Notes under the pieces: model-generated
What the model was told of the DNA's origin: nothing
Database searches by the model: none
Seen by the model: the letters and a program-made list of their open reading frames with translations, nothing else
In this document: one piece after another, positions 28,892 to 46,699 of the stretch
Position numbering within the stretch: the stretch's first letter is position 1
Layout: each line of letters starts with the position of its first letter
From: Clostridiales bacterium
Lineage (GTDB): Bacteria; Bacillota; Clostridia; Caldicoprobacterales; DTU083
Assembly (NCBI GenBank): GCA_012838915.1
Contig: DUOI01000054.1
Coordinates: forward strand, 1 to 49,569
Reading direction: 5' to 3'
DNA: 49,569 nt
Position numbers and translations under genes: made by a program

Positions 28892-30208
28892 ATCAAAGAA
28901 TACTTTGAAAACATTAAAACAATCCCTTATGCGGGGCCGCAAAGCAAAGAACCTATGGCTTTCAAGTATTATGACGCGGAGCGCCTTGTCATGGGAAAAC
29001 CCATGAAGGAACATCTTCCCTTTGCCATGGCCTGGTGGCATAACCTTTGCGCCGCCGGTACGGATATGTTCGGGCGCGAAACGGCGGACAAGTCCTTTGG
29101 CACTGTCAAGGGTACTATGGAGCATGCCCGGGCGAAGGTGGACGCGGGCTTTGAGTTCATGAAGAAGCTGGGCATCAGGTATTTTTGTTTCCACGACGTG
29201 GATTTAGTCCCTGAGATGGATAATATTAAGGAGACGAACCGCTGTCTTGATGTCATTTCCGACTATATCCTCGAAAAAATGCAACAAACGGGCATTCGGT
29301 GTTTGTGGGGTACAGCGAACTTATTTTCTAATCCATGCTTTATGAACGGTGCAGGCAGCTCAAATTCGGCGGATGTGTTCTGCTTTGCCGCAGCGCAGAT
29401 TAAAAAAGCGTTGGATATCACCGTGAAGCTTGGCGGTAAAGGTTATGTGTTTTGGGGCGGACGAGAGGGCTATGAAACTCTATTGAATACCGACGTTAAA
29501 TTTGAATTGGAGAATATTGCGCGGTTGATGCATTTGGCTGTCGCCTACGGCAGGAGTATCGGATTTACGGGGGATTTCTACATAGAGCCAAAGCCTAAAG
29601 AGCCAATGAAACACCAATATGATTTTGATGCGGCGACTGCCATCGGTTTTTTGAGGCAGTACGGCCTGGACAAGGATTTTAAACTAAACATTGAAGCAAA
29701 CCATGCTACCTTGGCTGGACACACGTTTCAGCATGAATTGCGTATAGCCGCCATCAACGGTATGCTCGGATCCATTGATGCAAATCAGGGAGATTACTTG
29801 CTTGGCTGGGATACGGACGAGTTCCCCTTTAACGTCTATGAAACGACCATGTGTATGTATGAGGTTCTCAAGAACGGCGGCCTTACCGGCGGATTCAATT
29901 TCGATGCAAAAAACCGTCGCCCAAGCTACACAGCAGAGGACATGTTTCATGCGTACATTTTAGGTATGGACAGCTTTGCACTGGGGCTCTTAAAAGCTGC
30001 CAAGCTGATTGAGGATGGACGCATTGATGCTTTTATTGAGGAGCGGTACCAAAGCTATCGCAGCGGCATCGGTGCAAGAATTCGAAGCGGTGATGTAACC
30101 TTGGAGGAACTTGCCGACTATGCAGAGATGCTGGGCGCACCTGAACTTCCGGGCAGCGGTTCTCAGGAGTATTTGGAGGGCATTATTAATACCTTGATCT
30201 TCGGCTGA
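28892..30208 (+). CDS. xylA: Xylose isomerase (non-canonical ATC start)
   Basis: XylA converts D-xylose to D-xylulose using Mg2+ or Mn2+. The product is about 438 aa, the family length. Catalytic and metal sites include [11 protein letters not shown], the [13 protein letters not shown] signature, [30 protein letters not shown] and [16 protein letters not shown]. Residues homologous to the family start ([17 protein letters not shown]) precede the first ATG at 28955, and they are preceded by ATC at 28892, five bases after AGGAGGAG. An in-frame stop at 28871 excludes any upstream ATG, GTG or TTG. Translation from ATC, a substitution, or a sequence error are the choices. No xylB or xylR is nearby, and base usage differs from the neighbours. 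Confidence 0.93.
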
Positions 30209-30260: not shown

Positions 30261-30290
30261 TTGACACCGGGGTTGACCCTTTGGTACAAT
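30261..30290 (+). promoter_or_regulatory. Promoter of the ilv-leu leader
   Basis: TTGACA (30261-30266) and TACAAT (30285-30290) are separated by 18 bases and lie about 30 bases before the ykkC aptamer. This is a good vegetative-type promoter for the whole leader and the downstream operon. Confidence 0.85.
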
Positions 30291-30320
30291 ACAAGGCAAT
30301 TCAACATTTTTCAGGAAGAA

Positions 30321-30415
30321 AGTGTACCTAGGGTTCCGCCGCATATGCGGGTCAGCGACCGAGCGGTACAAAATACACCGTTGGTGTATTACACCGTGGG
30401 AATAAAAGACCCGGC
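30321..30415 (+). promoter_or_regulatory. ykkC-class riboswitch aptamer (probable ppGpp subtype 2a)
   Basis: The conserved ACCTAGGGTTCCGC start at 30326-30339 is followed by a CCGC-ATAT-GCGG hairpin, GACCGAGCGGTAC, a perfect AATACACC-GTT-GGTGTATT hairpin (30372-30390), and the conserved ACACCGTGGGAATAAAAG with GGG/CCC pairing (30398-30412). These are ykkC-family features. Guanidine, PRPP and ppGpp subtypes share this scaffold; the ppGpp form is the one known to control BCAA genes, so I favour it by context. A hairpin pairing region 30410-30420 with TTGCCGGG (30440-30447) would disrupt the 3' end of the aptamer and is a candidate expression platform. Confidence 0.88.
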
Positions 30416-30479
30416 GGCAAGTTTCTTCAACAGAAGCTGTTGCCGGGCATTGTTATATCCTGAATTCCAATCAGTCACA

Positions 30480-30770
30480 CCCTATGACGGAGAAAGAAGA
30501 CCCGAAGCAATCAACTTCAGTGAGCCGGTGGTTGGTGAGAACCGGTGGGTTGTCGGGTTGTATGCTCACTCCTGAGGGGTAGCCTGAAAAAGCCGTCTGA
30601 CAGGCTTTAGTAGGGCTTACCGGGGGGTCCCGTTACAGGCCGGAAGTTTGATGGAACTTCGCAAGGTCCGTCCCGTGAGGGCCGGATAAAATCAGGGTGG
30701 TACCGCGGAAGCAGCCTTTCGCCCCTTGTACAAAAGCTTAACTTGTATAGGGCGGAAGGTTTTTTGTTTT
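30480..30770 (+). promoter_or_regulatory. T-box leader (probable leucine specifier) with terminator
   Basis: The 14-base T-box AGGGTGGTACCGCG is at 30694-30707, the region that pairs with uncharged tRNA's acceptor end through its UGG. A terminator at 30715-30770 pairs CCTTTCGCCC with GGGCGGAAGG and ends in a T-run. Upstream, GGTTGGTGAGAACC fits the stem I apical loop, and CTC at 30565-30567, followed by A, is the likely specifier (leucine). Uncharged tRNA would stabilise the antiterminator and allow read-through. It sits directly after the ykkC element and before ilvN. Confidence 0.95.
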
Positions 30771-30799: not shown

Positions 30800-32312
<1,513 letters not shown>

Positions 32313-32330
32313 CCTTTAAGGAGAATTTTC

Positions 32331-33884
32331 ATGGCTAATCAAATCGCTATTTTCGATACGACTTTAAGGGACGGGGAGCAGACCCCCGGTGTCAACCTGA
32401 ATATGCAGGAGAAGCTGGAAATCGCCAGGCAATTGGAAAACCTGGGCGTGGATGTTATAGAAGCGGGTTTTCCCATCTCCTCCAAGGGAGACTTTGAAGG
32501 GGTAAGGGCTGTTGCAAGGCAGATCCGCAGGCCGGTTATAGCTGCCCTTGCCAGGGCTGTAAAGAAGGATATAGACAGGGCCTGGGAAGCGGTGCAGGAG
32601 GCAGCCAGGCCCAGGATTCACACCTTTATAGCAACCTCGGATATTCACATGAAATATAAGCTGCGGATGGAGCCGGATGCTGTATTGAGGCGGGCTGTGG
32701 AAATGGTAACCTATGCCAAATCACTCTGCCCCCAGGTGGAATTCTCCCCCGAAGACGGCTCCCGGACCAGGCCTGAGTTTTTATATCAGGTTTTGGAGGA
32801 AGTCATCCGGGCAGGGGCGGATGTGCTGAACATCCCCGATACGGTGGGCTATTCCACACCTGATGAATTCGGAGCCCTTATCAGAGGGATACAGAAAAAT
32901 GTCAAGGGAATCGACAATGTGGTTCTCAGCGTCCACTGTCATAATGATTTGGGCATGGCGGTGGCCAATTCCCTTGCAGCAATAGAAAACGGTGCCCGGC
33001 AGATAGAATGTACCATTAACGGATTGGGCGAAAGGGCAGGCAATGCGGCCCTGGAGGAGCTGGTAATGGCTCTTCGCACCCGGAGGGACTATTACCGCTT
33101 CCAAACCAATATCGTGACTGAGCAGATATATCGTACCAGCTCCCTCGTCAGTTCCCTGACCGGTGTGCATGTGCAGCCCAATAAGGCTATAGTGGGTGCC
33201 AATGCCTTTGCCCATGAATCAGGAATTCACCAGCACGGCATTCTGACTAACCGGGAAACCTATGAGATCATGACCCCGGAATCCATTGGGCTGAAGAAAA
33301 GCCAGATGGTGCTGGGCAAGCATTCCGGCCGGCATGCCTTTGAGGAGCGTTTGCAGGAATTGGGCTACAACCACCTGACTGCGGATGATATCAATGAAGC
33401 CTTCAGGAAATTCAAGGATTTGGCGGATAAAAAGAAATATGTCATGGATGATGATATTGAGGCGCTGATTTCCACGGAATTAATACAAATACCGGAAGCG
33501 GTGCAATTGGAGTACTACCATATATCCAGCGGCAATTCTTTGATTGCCACATCCACTGTCCGCCTTTCCAGGGAAGGCAGCACGGTTGAGGAGGCGGCCT
33601 GCGGGGACGGCCCCATTGATGCCATTTTCCATGCGGTAGAGCGGGCGACGGGGCTGGAAGTTACCCTGAAGGATTATCGCATTCGAGCCATTACCAGCGG
33701 CAAGGATGCCCTGGGTGAGAGTACCGTAAAGGTGGAAAAGGACGGCAAAATATATGTAGGACGGGGTATCAGCACGGATATAATAGAAGCCAGCGCAAAG
33801 GCTTATATCAATGCCATCAACAGGATGCTTTATGATGTCAGGGAGAATCAAAACGGGCAGATTGAGACCATTGAGACAATATAG
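32331..33884 (+). CDS. leuA: 2-Isopropylmalate synthase
   Basis: LeuA condenses 2-ketoisovalerate with acetyl-CoA, the first leucine-specific step. It has 517 aa. The catalytic TIM barrel carries IFDTTLRDGEQTPGVNLN, metal-binding HCHNDLGMAVANSLAAIENG and NGLGERAGNAALEE, followed by HESGIHQHG. The C-terminal allosteric (leucine feedback) domain starts near residue 390. The ATG follows AAGGAG. It differs from the downstream cimA by its HQHG-type residues and LeuA-like length. Confidence 0.95.
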   Translation: MANQIAIFDTTLRDGEQTPGVNLNMQEKLEIARQLENLGVDVIEAGFPISSKGDFEGVRAVARQIRRPVIAALARAVKKDIDRAWEAVQEAARPRIHTFIATSDIHMKYKLRMEPDAVLRRAVEMVTYAKSLCPQVEFSPEDGSRTRPEFLYQVLEEVIRAGADVLNIPDTVGYSTPDEFGALIRGIQKNVKGIDNVVLSVHCHNDLGMAVANSLAAIENGARQIECTINGLGERAGNAALEELVMALRTRRDYYRFQTNIVTEQIYRTSSLVSSLTGVHVQPNKAIVGANAFAHESGIHQHGILTNRETYEIMTPESIGLKKSQMVLGKHSGRHAFEERLQELGYNHLTADDINEAFRKFKDLADKKKYVMDDDIEALISTELIQIPEAVQLEYYHISSGNSLIATSTVRLSREGSTVEEAACGDGPIDAIFHAVERATGLEVTLKDYRIRAITSGKDALGESTVKVEKDGKIYVGRGISTDIIEASAKAYINAINRMLYDVRENQNGQIETIETI

Positions 33885-33947
33885 TATTCCTTGCCGCAAA
33901 TAATCAACTGCTGAAGCCGGTGCACATTAATTAAGGTTTAGAAGGAG

Positions 33948-35582
33948 ATGGTTGGAAATGGGGATTCAAAACTGAGAAAAAAGGTTGTAATATATGATTC
34001 CACTCTGCGGGACGGGGCCCAGGCAGAGGGTATTTCCTTTACGGTGAATGACAAGCTTAAAATTGTCCAAAGGCTGGATGAGTTCGGAATAGACTATATC
34101 GAGGCGGGCAACCCGGGATCCAACCCCAAGGATCTGGAGTTCTTTGAAAAGGTCGGCGGGCTGCGATTGAAAACAGCCCGGCTGGCAGCTTTCGGCAGCA
34201 CCTGCAGGGCGGGCATGGCTGCAGAGCAGGACGGCAATCTGCAGGCCTTGCTGAAGGCGAATACTTCCGTTGTAACCGTATTCGGGAAAAGCTGGGATTT
34301 CCATGTGACGGACATCATCAGGACCACATTGGAAGAAAACCTGCGCATGATTCGGGATACCCTTTGCTTCCTTAAAGGGCAGGGGAAAGAAGTTATATTT
34401 GATGCCGAACACTTTTTTGACGGTTATCGTGCCAATCCGGACTATGCAATGCAATGCCTGAAAGCTGCCGCAGGGGCAGGTGCCGATTGCCTGGTACTCT
34501 GCGACACCAATGGCGGTACATTTCCGTCAGATGTTTACAGAATTGTCTCAGAGGTGGTAAGGCAGTTCTCCATTCCCATAGGCATTCATTGTCACAATGA
34601 CAGCGGCATGGCAGTGGCTAATTCCCTGATAGCGGTGGAAAGCGGTGCGGTACAGGTACAGGGCACTGTCAATGGCTATGGCGAGAGGTGCGGAAATGCC
34701 AACCTTTGCACCATTATACCCAACCTGCAATTGAAGTGGAATGCAAGCTGTGTACCGGAAAATCAGATTAAAAACCTTTCCGCCTTATCCCGATATGTCA
34801 GCGAGCTGGCCAACCTGGCCCATAATGAAAGGGACCCATATGTGGGACATTGTGCATTTGCACATAAGGGCGGTATGCATATTGATGCCATCCATAAGAA
34901 CCCGCTGTCTTTCGAGCATATCCGGCCTGAGCTGGTAGGAAACGAGAGACGCATACTGATGTCGGAGGTATCAGGGCGCAGCACCATATTGAAGCGGATC
35001 CAGGAAGTTGCTCCCTGGGTTGATAAAAATTCATATGAGACCCAATATCTGATGAATGAGCTGAAGCGGCTGGAACACGAAGGATATCAGTTCGAAGGAG
35101 CCGAGACCTCCTTTGAGTTGATGGTAAGAAGGGCGCTGGGCAAGAATGACCGTTTCTTCCATGTCAAGGACTTCCGGGTGCTCTGCGAGGAGCACTGGCA
35201 GGACGATTACAGCGCGTCTGCCATCATAAAGCTGCAGGTGGATGGTGTGGAGGAAGTGTCGGCGGCAGAAGGCGATGGCCCTGTAAATGCATTGGACAAG
35301 GCGCTGCGTAAAGCGCTCACCGTATTTTATCCGGAATTGGATAGAATGCGCCTGACAGACTATAAAGTACGGGTGCTGGATACAGGAAAGGCTACCGCCG
35401 CCAAGGTACGGGTTCACATTGAGTCCACCGACGGAGAGAGGGTTTGGGGAACGGTAGGAGTATCCACCAATATAATAGAGGCCAGCTGGGCGGCCTTGGT
35501 GGATTCCATAGAATATTTTCTGTATCTGCACCATCGGGGGCCTGCACTAAAAACAAAGTGCAAGTCGGATTCCATGGGATGA
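33948..35582 (+). CDS. cimA: (R)-Citramalate synthase
   Basis: CimA joins pyruvate and acetyl-CoA to form citramalate, an entry to 2-ketobutyrate and isoleucine that avoids threonine deaminase. The protein has up to 544 aa. Key motifs are IYDSTLRDGAQAEGISFTVN (the AQAEGISF variant separates it from LeuA), HCHNDSGMAVANSLIAVESG, VNGYGERCGNANL and AHKGGMHIDAIHKNP. The start is imperfect: GAAGGAG touches the ATG at 33948, and no better in-frame start is visible. LeuC, LeuD and LeuB can serve both the leucine and citramalate routes. Confidence 0.93.
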   Translation: MVGNGDSKLRKKVVIYDSTLRDGAQAEGISFTVNDKLKIVQRLDEFGIDYIEAGNPGSNPKDLEFFEKVGGLRLKTARLAAFGSTCRAGMAAEQDGNLQALLKANTSVVTVFGKSWDFHVTDIIRTTLEENLRMIRDTLCFLKGQGKEVIFDAEHFFDGYRANPDYAMQCLKAAAGAGADCLVLCDTNGGTFPSDVYRIVSEVVRQFSIPIGIHCHNDSGMAVANSLIAVESGAVQVQGTVNGYGERCGNANLCTIIPNLQLKWNASCVPENQIKNLSALSRYVSELANLAHNERDPYVGHCAFAHKGGMHIDAIHKNPLSFEHIRPELVGNERRILMSEVSGRSTILKRIQEVAPWVDKNSYETQYLMNELKRLEHEGYQFEGAETSFELMVRRALGKNDRFFHVKDFRVLCEEHWQDDYSASAIIKLQVDGVEEVSAAEGDGPVNALDKALRKALTVFYPELDRMRLTDYKVRVLDTGKATAAKVRVHIESTDGERVWGTVGVSTNIIEASWAALVDSIEYFLYLHHRGPALKTKCKSDSMG

Positions 35583-35619
35583 TAACGGGATAAACAGAAT
35601 AAGATAAGGGGGAATCTCA

Positions 35620-36885
35620 ATGGGCATGACCATGACGCAAAAAATACTGGCGGCGCATTCCGGACAGGATCGGGTGGAACCGGGACAGCTCATCATGGCG
35701 GATTTGGACCTGGTCCTGGGAAACGATATCACAACGCCGGTAGCCATAAGGGAATTTGAAAAAATCAATACAAAGACTGTATTTGATAAAAGAAGGGTTG
35801 CCATTGTTCCGGATCATTTTACCCCCAATAAGGATATAAAATCTGCTGAACAATGCCGGCTGATTCGAAACTTTGCACATCACCATGAGATAGAAAACTA
35901 CTTTGAAATCGGGCGGATGGGCATTGAACACGCCCTGATTCCGGAAAAAGGCCTGGCGGTTCCCGGCGATGTCATCATAGGTGCGGATTCCCATACCTGT
36001 ACCTATGGAGCCTTAGGCGCATTCTCCACAGGGGTGGGAAGTACGGACATGGCAGCAGGAATGGCTTCGGGCCAATGCTGGTTCAAGGTGCCGGAAGCCA
36101 TCCGATTCAACCTTAACGGGAAGCTGCAGCCCTGGGTGAGCGGTAAGGACGTTATTCTTCATATTATAGGTCAGATAGGCGTGGACGGTGCCCTGTATAA
36201 ATCCATGGAATTCGGGGGAGCGGGCCTGGCTGCCTTAACCATGGACGACCGCTTTACCATGGCCAATATGGCAATCGAAGCAGGTGCAAAGAACGGAATA
36301 TTCGAGGTGGATGATAAAACCCTTGCCTATGTAAAAGAGCATTCCACAAGGGAATACAAGGTTTATAAGGCGGATGAGGATGCCGGGTATGTCAGGGTTG
36401 TTAATATAAACCTTTCAGATATCAGACCTACGGTGGCTTTTCCCCATTTGCCGGATAATACCCGCACTATAGATGAAGTAGGAGAAATAACCATTGATCA
36501 GGTGGTTATCGGTTCCTGCACCAACGGAAGAATCCAAGACCTGAGAGCTGCGGCCAGGGTACTGAAGGGTAAAAAGGTGCACTCCAAGGTGCGCACCATC
36601 ATCTTCCCTGCAACCCAAAAGATTTATCTGCAGGCTATGAGGGAAGGCCTGCTGGAAATTTTTGTGGAAGCCGGCGCGGCAGTGAGTACACCGACCTGCG
36701 GCCCCTGCCTGGGCGGCCATATGGGGGTACTGGGCAAAGGGGAGCGGGCGGTAGCCACTACCAACCGGAACTTTGTGGGGCGGATGGGGCATCCGGAAAG
36801 TGAAGTGTACCTGGCAAGCCCGGCTGTTGCAGCAGCATCTGCGGTTACCGGCCGGATTTCTTCTCCCGAGGAGGTTGTGAAATGA
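35620..36885 (+). CDS. leuC: 3-Isopropylmalate dehydratase large subunit
   Basis: LeuC binds the [4Fe-4S] cluster of isopropylmalate isomerase, which also handles citramalate. The 421-aa protein is the short, archaeal/clostridial type. Cluster ligands lie in [39 protein letters not shown] and [19 protein letters not shown]. It ends [20 protein letters not shown]. The ATG at 35620 follows AAGGGGG; it overlaps leuD by ATGA. Confidence 0.96.
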
Positions 36886-37376
36886 TTCAGGGAAAGGTGA
36901 TCAAATACGGAGACAATATAGATACGGACGTTATTATACCGGCCCGATACCTGAACACCAGTGACCCTGCAGAGCTGGCAAAACATTGCATGGAGGACCT
37001 GGATAAAAGCTTTGCGGCTCGGGTGCAGCCGGGTGACATTATTGCAGCGGGGCGAAACTTCGGCTGCGGCTCATCCCGTGAGCATGCTCCCATTGCCCTG
37101 AAGGCGTCCGGTATAAGCCTGGTGATAGCGGAAACCTTTGCCCGTATCTTTTACCGCAATGCCATCAATATCGGGCTGCCCATTCTGGAATGCCCCGAAG
37201 CATCCAGGGCTGTAGCAGACGGAGATCAGGTGAGGGTGGATTTAAATACCGGCAGGATTGAAAATCTGACATCGGGCAGCATCTATCAGGCAGAAGCTTT
37301 TCCGGATTTTATGCAGGATATTATTGGATCCGGCGGATTGATTGATTATGTCAGGGGAAGGATGGGGCAGCGATGA
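36882..37376 (+). CDS. leuD: 3-Isopropylmalate dehydratase small subunit
   Basis: LeuD is the swivel-domain subunit that completes the isomerase active site. The 164-aa protein contains [17 protein letters not shown] and the substrate-binding loop [20 protein letters not shown], and it ends with [20 protein letters not shown]. The start is ATG in ATGA overlap with leuC, and the end overlaps leuB the same way, indicating translational coupling of leuC-D-B. Confidence 0.96.
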
Positions 37377-38440
37377 AAATAGCGGTGATCCCCGGTGACG
37401 GTATCGGCCCTGATATTATCAGACAAGCCCGTAAGGTGCTGAATCGGGTATCAAAAGTATATAAAACAGCCTTTGAATTTCAGGAGCTTCCAATGGGAGG
37501 CGCTGCCATTGATAAGTTCGGCGTGCCTCTGCCGGAGGAAACATTGAAGGTGTGTAAAAACAGCGATGCAGTATTGCTGGGGGCGGTCGGCGGAGAAAAA
37601 TGGGATAACCTGCCTGGGCACCTGCGCCCGGAGGCCGGCCTTTTGGGTATACGCAAAGGTTTGGGTGTGTTTGCCAATTTAAGGCCTGCTATATTGTTTC
37701 CCCAGTTGAAATCCGCTTCCGCCCTGAAGGAGGAGGTCCTGGGAGACGGGCTGGATATAATGGTGGTACGGGAACTGACAGGAGGCATCTATTTCGGGCA
37801 GCGGGGCAGACGGACCGGCTCCTTCGGACAGGAAGCCTGGGATACGGAAGCATATTCAGCTTCAGAAGTGGAGCGGGTGGCCAGGGTGGCCTTTGAAATT
37901 GCAAGGAAGCGCAAAAAAAAGCTGATGTCAATAGATAAGGCCAATGTCCTGGAGAGCTCCAGGCTTTGGCGGGAAGTAGTATGCAAAGTAGCAGAGGAGT
38001 ACCCGGATGTTGCTCTTGAACACATGTACGTGGACAACGCAGCCATGCAATTAATACGCAACCCCAGGCAGTTTGATGTGATAGTAACCACCAATATGTT
38101 TGGCGATATTCTCAGCGATGAAGCCTCAATGCTGACGGGCTCCCTGGGAATGCTGCCCTCGGCAAGCCTGGGAGAAGGAAAATTGGGGTTGTATGAGCCA
38201 ATTCACGGCTCTGCACCGGATTTGGCCGGACTCAACAAGGCCAACCCTATTGCCACCATATTAAGTGCTGCCATGATGCTTCGCTACAGCTTCGATCGGG
38301 AGGATGCAGCCGCTGCTGTTGAAACTGCTGTTGGCAATGTATTGGAACAGGGCTTCAGGACGCCTGATATCATGCAGCCCGGTATGATGCTTGTGGGTAC
38401 GGAAGAGATGGGAGACAAAATAACCGCCGAGATAAACTGA
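37373..38440 (+). CDS. leuB: 3-Isopropylmalate dehydrogenase
   Basis: LeuB oxidises 3-isopropylmalate to 2-ketoisocaproate using NAD+ and may also act on methylmalate in the citramalate route. It has 355 aa. Motifs are [84 protein letters not shown] and [20 protein letters not shown]. It closes the contiguous ilvN-leuB operon; no strong terminator follows before the M23 peptidase gene. Confidence 0.97.
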
Positions 38441-45019: not shown

Positions 45020-46699
45020 TTGAAGCTGACAGGAGCTCAGGTTTTAATTGAATGCTTAAAGGAGCAGAAGGTGGATCTGATTTTCGGGTATCCGGGAGGG
45101 GCTGTTCTGCCGATTTATGATGCCCTTTATAATACCAGGGGAATCACACATATTCTGACAGCCCATGAGCAGGGTGCTGCCCATGCTGCTGACGGATATG
45201 CCCGCGCCACCGGAAAACCGGGTGTGGTGCTGGTCACCTCCGGCCCGGGGGCAACCAATACTGTTACCGGAATTGCAACGGCTTATATGGATTCAGTCCC
45301 ACTGGTGATATTTACCGGACAGGTGGCTGCCAGCCTGCTGGGGCGGGACTCCTTCCAGGAAGTGGATATTGCCGGCATTACAATGCCGATTACCAAGCAT
45401 AACTATATAGTTAAGGATGCAGCCAGGCTGCCCCATATAATACGGGAGGCCTTTGACATTGCAACCAGCGGTCGGCCCGGTCCGGTAGTGGTGGATATGC
45501 CCAAGGATGTTCAAACTGCATTGATTGAATACAAGCCTGACGACGGGCGGCCCATGGAATGGAAAACCAGAAGGAAATGGTATGAAGAGGCGGACAATAA
45601 TCCTGAAAATATAGAGAAGGCTGTGGAGCTGATAAATAAATGTACCAGCCCGGTAATTCTTGCAGGAGGCGGTATAAATATATCCGGTGCCAACAGGGAG
45701 CTTCGGGAATTTGCGGAAAAAATCAAGGCCCCGGTATGTGTCTCCCTCATGGGAATGGGCGCCTTTCCCGGTGACCATCCATACTTCCTGGGAATGGTGG
45801 GTATGCACGGTACCCGGTACGCCAATTATGCAGTGTCAAATTCCGATTGTCTGATAGCTGTCGGTGCCCGTTTCAGCGACCGGGTTATCAGCAAAGTGGA
45901 AGCCTTTGCACCCAAAGCCCGCATAATTCATATAGATATTGACCCTGCCGAAATCAACAAAAATGTTACAGCCCATATTCCGATTTGCGGTGATGTAAAG
46001 GAATTGCTGTCCGGGCTTGCAGACAGGGTTGCTGAGAGGGATGAAAGCGGCTGGAACAGTCAGATTCAGGAATGGAAGCAGGATCATCCGCTTAAATACA
46101 GGGGTAAAAGTGCGCTCAGCCCTCAATATGTGATAGAAAAGCTGTATGAACTGACGGAAGGGAAAGCCATCATCACTACTGAAGTCGGCCAGAATCAGAT
46201 GTGGGCAGCCCAGTATTATAAATATTCCGAGCCGCGCACCTTCCTCACATCCGGTGGATTGGGAGCCATGGGCTACGGCCTGGGGGCTTCCATAGGAGCT
46301 GCCATGGGCAGGCCGGATCGCAGGGTAGTAAACATAGCCGGTGACGGCAGCTTTAAAATGAACTCCACTGAGCTGGCCACTGTGTCCAAATATCAGGTCC
46401 CCATAGTTCAGCTGGTACTGAATAATCATACCCTTGGCATGGTGAGGCAATGGCAGGATTTGTTCTTCCAGGGCAGGTATTCCCAAAGCACCCTGGGGCC
46501 GGATGTGGATTTCTTAAAGCTGGCTGATGCATACGGTATTAAGGGTTTTAGCATCTCTTCCAACCAGGAGGTGGAAAGGGTTCTGAAGGAGGCACTTTCT
46601 CTGAACGAACCGGTATTAGTGGAATGCGATATCAGCCCCGATGAAAAAGTTTATCCCATGGTTGCCCCCGGGGCGGCAATAGATAATCTGATTGATTGA
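45020..46699 (+). CDS. ilvB: Acetolactate synthase large (catalytic) subunit
   Basis: IlvB makes acetolactate or acetohydroxybutyrate using thiamine diphosphate, Mg2+ and FAD. It has 559 aa. The N-terminal active-site glutamate lies in LTAHEQGAAHAADGYARAT, and QEVDIAGITMPITKHNY follows. The FAD domain contains MGMHGTRYANYAVSNSDC, and the C-terminal ThDP motif starts IAGDGSFKMNSTELATVS. The start is TTG at 45020 after AAAGGGGGC. No T-box precedes it. Its small subunit ilvN lies at 30800, in a separate transcript, which is unusual. A terminator follows. Confidence 0.97.
   Translation: MKLTGAQVLIECLKEQKVDLIFGYPGGAVLPIYDALYNTRGITHILTAHEQGAAHAADGYARATGKPGVVLVTSGPGATNTVTGIATAYMDSVPLVIFTGQVAASLLGRDSFQEVDIAGITMPITKHNYIVKDAARLPHIIREAFDIATSGRPGPVVVDMPKDVQTALIEYKPDDGRPMEWKTRRKWYEEADNNPENIEKAVELINKCTSPVILAGGGINISGANRELREFAEKIKAPVCVSLMGMGAFPGDHPYFLGMVGMHGTRYANYAVSNSDCLIAVGARFSDRVISKVEAFAPKARIIHIDIDPAEINKNVTAHIPICGDVKELLSGLADRVAERDESGWNSQIQEWKQDHPLKYRGKSALSPQYVIEKLYELTEGKAIITTEVGQNQMWAAQYYKYSEPRTFLTSGGLGAMGYGLGASIGAAMGRPDRRVVNIAGDGSFKMNSTELATVSKYQVPIVQLVLNNHTLGMVRQWQDLFFQGRYSQSTLGPDVDFLKLADAYGIKGFSISSNQEVERVLKEALSLNEPVLVECDISPDEKVYPMVAPGAAIDNLID

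Follow-up and report, generated by a model that had tools for sequence, protein, structure and literature searches.

Two predicted attenuators in series upstream of a BCAA operon

The BCAA synthesis operon of a Clostridiales draft genome is preceded by a leader that, judging from its sequence, very probably consists of two serial transcription attenuators, both of them ON switches, the first responding to ppGpp and the second to uncharged tRNA-Leu, such that full expression would need both signals (AND logic). The leader lies on the + strand of the window, that is, the entire stretch of 49,569 nucleotides of contig DUOI01000054.1 that was analyzed, between the preceding gene, which ends at 30208, and the ATG codon of ilvN (30800), and comprises, in this order, a promoter-like pair, a ykkC-scaffold aptamer, a hairpin, a T-box and a terminator. 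The putative sigma-70-like promoter (TTGACA-18 nt-TACAAT, 30261-30290, + strand) matches at 11 of 12 positions in a consensus scan. The original prediction, namely, a promoter followed by a ykkC aptamer and then a T-box with a terminator in front of ilvN, was borne out by matches to the Rfam families RF00442 and RF00230, the promoter being a consensus match only.

The same prediction placed BCAA synthesis genes downstream, and Pfam identifies them as ilvN-ilvC-leuA-(cimA-like)-leuCD-leuB. The first gene after the leader is ilvN, encoding the acetolactate synthase small subunit (30800-31336, + strand; Pfam ALS_ss_C and ACT_AHAS_ss); ilvC, leuA, the cimA-like gene, leuC, leuD and leuB follow on the same strand (31317-38440; Pfam and ORF coordinates), the cimA-like gene encoding the second HMGL-like/LeuA-dimer protein of the operon. 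This operon, as in several relatives, is headed by ilvN without ilvB. The gene for the acetolactate synthase large subunit, ilvB, which is the sole TPP_enzyme_N gene found in the genome, is located at 45020-46699, about 14 kb downstream of ilvN, and no Rfam leader was found upstream of it. Altogether, the draft genome (2.18 Mb in 149 contigs) contains one ykkC RNA, 14 T-box matches and a single RelA/SpoT gene, a 727-aa open frame.

The aptamer and its conservation

The aptamer (30315-30428, + strand) was assigned to ykkC subtype 2a (ppGpp) from the RF00442 match, the competing covariance models R3 and R2 described below and helix counts in 12 species. The match to RF00442 (Guanidine-I) spans 30317-30419 and scores 52.8 bits, below the gathering cut-off of 63 in Rfam 15, with E = 1.4e-8 in a local scan and 1.1e-6 in a scan of the whole window; it is the only match to this family in the window, and the genome has no other significant one. 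The Rfam 15 scan yielded no competing family at the aptamer, Guanidine-I being the only Rfam model for the ykkC scaffold. P2, P3, P4 and the conserved core of the scaffold are all present, consistent with both the RF00442 and the R3 scores. The end helix P1 consists of 7 bp, with the 5' strand GAAGAAA (30315-30321) paired with UUUCUUC (30422-30428), and is found, 100% paired, in all 12 aligned species. In P4 (30394-30417), the consensus fold and comparison with alignments A1 and A2 indicate pairing of CCG 30394-30396 with CGG 30415-30417, a U-G pair 30397/30414 and pairing of GG 30399-30400 with CC 30411-30412, with position 96 absent.

Across the window and 11 relatives, 99.3% of the cells in the aptamer helices are paired, and 8 pairs show changes on both sides (22 such cells), a result equaled in none of 500 shuffles; the compensatory changes amount to covariation in P2 and P3. 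In this count, the upper part of P4 was taken in a register one step off the homologous register of the consensus fold; the other helices are unaffected. The core of the aptamer is nearly invariant across the 12 species (alignment A3).

A search of 148 genomes of relatives detected a ykkC RNA in 28, counting that of the window itself. At 11 of these ykkC loci, a T-box is located just downstream on the same strand, followed by ilvN-ilvC or ilvB. Nearly all of the 12 genomes with the aptamer-then-T-box leader belong to one taxonomic order. The reverse arrangement, in which a T-box motif precedes a ppGpp-type aptamer by about 90-150 nt, was observed at L050, L051, L052, L053, L059, L061, L070, L073, L080, L081, L084, L089 and L090, which belong to Desulfotomaculum-like and other Firmicutes genomes; in the DNA read downstream of these loci, ilvD is present nearly always and ilvB often.

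Marker residues and covariance models point to ppGpp

Residues that distinguish the ligand types of this scaffold have been described (PMC6031431). Position 49 is A in guanidine aptamers and a pyrimidine in the ppGpp and PRPP types; position 96 is G in PRPP aptamers, whereas ppGpp aptamers either lack the base or have one other than G; C75 forms a pair with the guanine of ppGpp; and the ppGpp and PRPP types both have the end helix P1. In the numbering of the T. mathranii PRPP aptamer, G48 and C49 correspond to 30363-30364 (+ strand), as mapped with alignments A1-A3 and these markers, so that position 49 is C30364, a pyrimidine as in the ppGpp type and not the A of Guanidine-I. The C75 equivalent in J3-4, a C able to pair with the ligand guanine, is C30392 (+ strand; alignment position and PMC6031431), and P1 competes with a terminator, as expected of the ppGpp type. 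Position 96 is missing in the window, which reads CCC-G-GCGG with UG opposite, forming a symmetric UG/GG internal loop of P4 in the consensus fold; the gap is placed by alignment, the register being fixed by the four Gs retained on the 5' side in L031 and L038.

Neither the window nor its relatives carry G at position 96. This G is present in all 18 purine-context aptamers aligned (CCC-(A/G)-G). The 16 aligned aptamers that precede ilv genes in other lineages mostly read CCC-N-A-G-CGG or lack the position-96 base (CCC-A-GCGG), with the exception of L063, and the base is also missing in the BCAA-context aptamers L052, L053 and L089. The aligned aptamers come from a scan of named genomes and, for two loci, from the search of relatives; purine context was read from an upstream guanine-aptamer sequence or a downstream reading frame, rather than gene by gene. 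The equivalent of G104, a ligand-contacting base, is A30420 in the genus of the window, and A is found at this position also in L030, L054, L057, L058 and L067, of which L054 and L057 are ilv-context aptamers; this substitution could change ligand affinity. The subtype markers make ppGpp the probable ligand, and the original assignment to the ppGpp type agrees with C30364, C30392, P1 and the missing position 96.

Two variants elsewhere depart from these patterns. At L063:5222-5372 (Firmicutes bacterium UBA3567), a ykkC RNA precedes ilvB, followed by a T-box, and reads CCC-A-G-G-CGG, where the PRPP-type G occupies position 96 although the remaining marks are those of the ppGpp type; the ligand of this RNA is doubtful. 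The ykkC RNAs of L041 and L043 have an altered core, GGGTAGCTAGGG ... GAGGGCTACA, and the context of that of L041, a NUDIX-like reading frame downstream, is consistent with subtype 2c (nucleoside diphosphates).

The covariance-model search for the subtype suggested at the outset gave the same answer as the markers. Model R3 was trained on ilv-context ykkC aptamers of other lineages, a set from which the window's family was absent, and model R2 on purine-context (PRPP) aptamers; R3 is built on the known helices and takes the place of a first ppGpp model, R1, which was dropped on account of a wrong RNAalifold fold. The window scores 92.3 bits with R3 (BCAA context) against 77.4 bits with R2 (PRPP context), a large bit difference of 14.9, the E-values of both models being rough, and all 11 relatives favor R3, by at least 5.7 bits. 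For the held-out PRPP-context loci L036 and L046, the preference is reversed (70.7 bits with R3 vs 97.7 bits with R2), and the loci L018-L022, which are Guanidine-I loci from the same class, reach only 25-38 bits with R3.

That guanidine is the ligand, as might be gathered from the Rfam label and from PMC12452182, a 2025 survey of contiguous riboswitches, appears exceedingly improbable: although Guanidine-I is the sole Rfam family that matches, the match falls short of the gathering cut-off, position 49 lacks the guanidine-specific A, the P1 helix, which is missing from guanidine aptamers, is found here and conserved, the genes downstream are those of BCAA synthesis, and Guanidine-I loci fare poorly with R3. 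A PRPP sensor (subtype 2b) would make the operon link leucine shortage with PRPP supply. In its favor, very few bases separate PRPP from ppGpp aptamers (PMC6031431), R2 also scores the window well and the 3' strand of P1 contains a UUUC identical to that of PRPP aptamers. Nevertheless, we consider it very improbable because the window and its relatives lack an equivalent of the invariant G at position 96, the P4 internal loop being symmetric (UG/GG) in all of them, R3 is well ahead of R2, and the aptamer precedes BCAA genes with no purine aptamer upstream. On the strength of the marker residues and the competing models, both guanidine and PRPP were rejected as likely ligands, which leaves ppGpp as the preferred assignment.

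A hairpin that competes with the aptamer

The first expression platform appears to be a hairpin, CCCGGCGGCA ... UGUUGCCGGG, followed by CAUUGUUAU (30410-30447, + strand), with a predicted folding energy of -24.5 kcal/mol (z -4.1); among 12 species, 95% of its cells are paired. The hairpin shares with the aptamer nucleotides 30410-30417 in P4, J4-1, which contacts the ligand, and 30422-30428, the 3' strand of P1, and because it uses the 3' strands of both helices together with J4-1, the two structures are mutually exclusive. A competing hairpin overlapping the aptamer had been predicted and is indeed there; the overlap had been confined to 30410-30412, however, and extends further. Without ligand energy, the terminator state is favored by about 7.5 kcal/mol (-52.6 vs -45.1). 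Such competition between P1 and a terminator is shared with the known ppGpp riboswitches, which are ON switches where ppGpp stabilizes P1 against the terminator (PMC10687018). No two-sided changes were found in the helix of this hairpin among the 12 species, the sequence of its 5' arm being constrained by the aptamer.

The U-tract that follows the hairpin is interrupted (CAUUGUUAU in the window), with 5-6 U of 9 in 12 of 12 species, a count that rests on the aligned L026-L040 family only (alignment A3). In this family, the hairpin is followed not by a plain run of U but by a conserved, interrupted YAUUAUUAUA-like stretch. Termination at the first gate may therefore be weak and the gate leaky. 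Carried to the extreme, this would mean that the first hairpin hardly terminates, that the T-box alone counts in practice and that the ppGpp aptamer serves only for fine-tuning, a reading that gains some credit from the contrast between the interrupted tract and the TTTTTT after the T-box terminator, as well as from the failure of a simple terminator scan with a strict criterion (5 T in 8 bases) to flag the first hairpin. We regard it as unlikely, given that the hairpin is strong and kept in 12 species, and that the near invariance of the aptamer core suggests regulation; a ppGpp-controlled terminator remains the preferred reading of the first hairpin.

A leucine T-box with its own terminator

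The T-box leader matches RF00230 at 30475-30729 (+ strand; 98 bits, E 2e-20, gathering score 93, model positions 1-219), and the full leucine T-box including the terminator spans 30475-30767. In the T-box alignment, the specifier codon is CUC (Leu; 30565-30567, + strand), which is invariant in the window and 11 relatives. The T-box sequence, AGGGUGGUACCGCG, is located at 30694-30707 (+ strand), with the bulge UGGU, which fits a tRNA ending in ACCA. The terminator, CCUUUCGCCC ... GGGCGGAAGG UUUUUU (30715-30765, + strand; sequence and fold), has the stem 30715-30724/30750-30759 and then TTTTTT. By these features, the T-box is apparently of the standard transcription antitermination type, with AGGGUGGUACCGCG as the antiterminator. 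The matching tRNA gene, tRNA-Leu(GAG), is present in the genome (L099). The CUC specifier and this gene accord with the original prediction of a T-box that has a terminator and takes tRNA-Leu as its input.

A predicted AND gate

Combining these elements, we propose the following scheme, in which the AND logic, the binding of the ligands and the termination at either hairpin are predicted. RNA polymerase would start near 30297 and make the ykkC-type aptamer first. Pairing of ppGpp with C30392 would stabilize P1 and P4, and the ligand-bound aptamer would hold 30410-30428 and thus block hairpin 30410-30447; with no ppGpp, this hairpin would form and many transcripts would stop. Those that pass would reach the T-box, which would read the leucine codon CUC. 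Uncharged tRNA-Leu(GAG) would stabilize the antiterminator and let the polymerase enter ilvN-ilvC-leuA-cimA-leuCDB, whereas with charged tRNA, the terminator 30715-30759 would form instead. A general starvation alarm and a specific leucine shortage would thus both be required for full expression. The genome encodes the components that such a scheme calls for, namely, one RelA/SpoT protein and tRNA-Leu(GAG).

The separate expression platforms before the BCAA genes, hairpins 30410-30447 and 30715-30759, fit the expectation of separate terminators in series, and with a hairpin for each element, the leader can be predicted to contain two stops that act independently, one after the other, which amounts to AND logic. 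Independent action of the two elements had been counted against the idea at the outset, but it does not speak against it, since two independent terminators in series give precisely AND logic. In the cell, the two inputs would not be independent, since the ppGpp and uncharged-tRNA signals are themselves linked. It is also conceivable, if very improbable, that the elements are coupled, the first hairpin with its interrupted U-tract acting mainly as a ppGpp-controlled pause that sets the tRNA sampling time of the T-box; ppGpp would then tune the threshold of the T-box rather than gate alone. Two serial attenuators, each with its own terminator, remain the favored architecture.

Relationship to known tandem leaders

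Tandem ppGpp/T-box(Leu) leaders trace to Sherlock et al. 2018, as cited in PMC5912903, PMC6031431 and PMC9481103. The ppGpp/T-box AND gate appears in a figure of PMC5912903; PMC6031431 states that the ppGpp riboswitch and the T-box often occur in tandem and gives the AND logic for the class; and PMC9481103 counts 15 cases of ppGpp followed by T-box(Leu) and 16 of the reverse, the AND gate being a prediction there as well. The leader described here shares with the published ppGpp - T-box(Leu) leaders the elements, their order (15 examples), the separate expression platforms and the BCAA genes, and differs in its lineage, a Clostridia-type draft genome and its relatives, in the interrupted first U-tract and in A replacing G at the G104 equivalent. 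The T-box(Leu) - ppGpp tandems, seen before ilvD/ilvB in Desulfotomaculum-like genomes, have the same elements and genes in the opposite order. PRPP riboswitches, including guanine-PRPP tandems, share the ykkC scaffold and the end helix but, unlike the window, keep G at 96 and precede purine genes, in many cases with a guanine aptamer upstream. Guanidine-I riboswitches (RF00442) have the core fold in common with the window and differ from it in A at 49, the lack of an end helix and exporter-type genes downstream. Thus, this leader is a well-supported new example of a published arrangement, not a new kind.

The assignment bears on a problem of labeling. Rfam 15 offers only Guanidine-I for the scaffold, and PMC12452182 (2025) reports T-box and 'guanidine' tandems before ilv/leu genes in Bacillota, interprets them as guanidine control and discusses guanidine as the signal. 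The ligand-deciding residues argue that such tandems are of the ppGpp type, at least in the clade of the window. This conserved clade, with 12 genomes, extends the small published list of ppGpp/T-box(Leu) leaders and would lend itself to in vivo tests of RNA AND logic, still called for in the literature.
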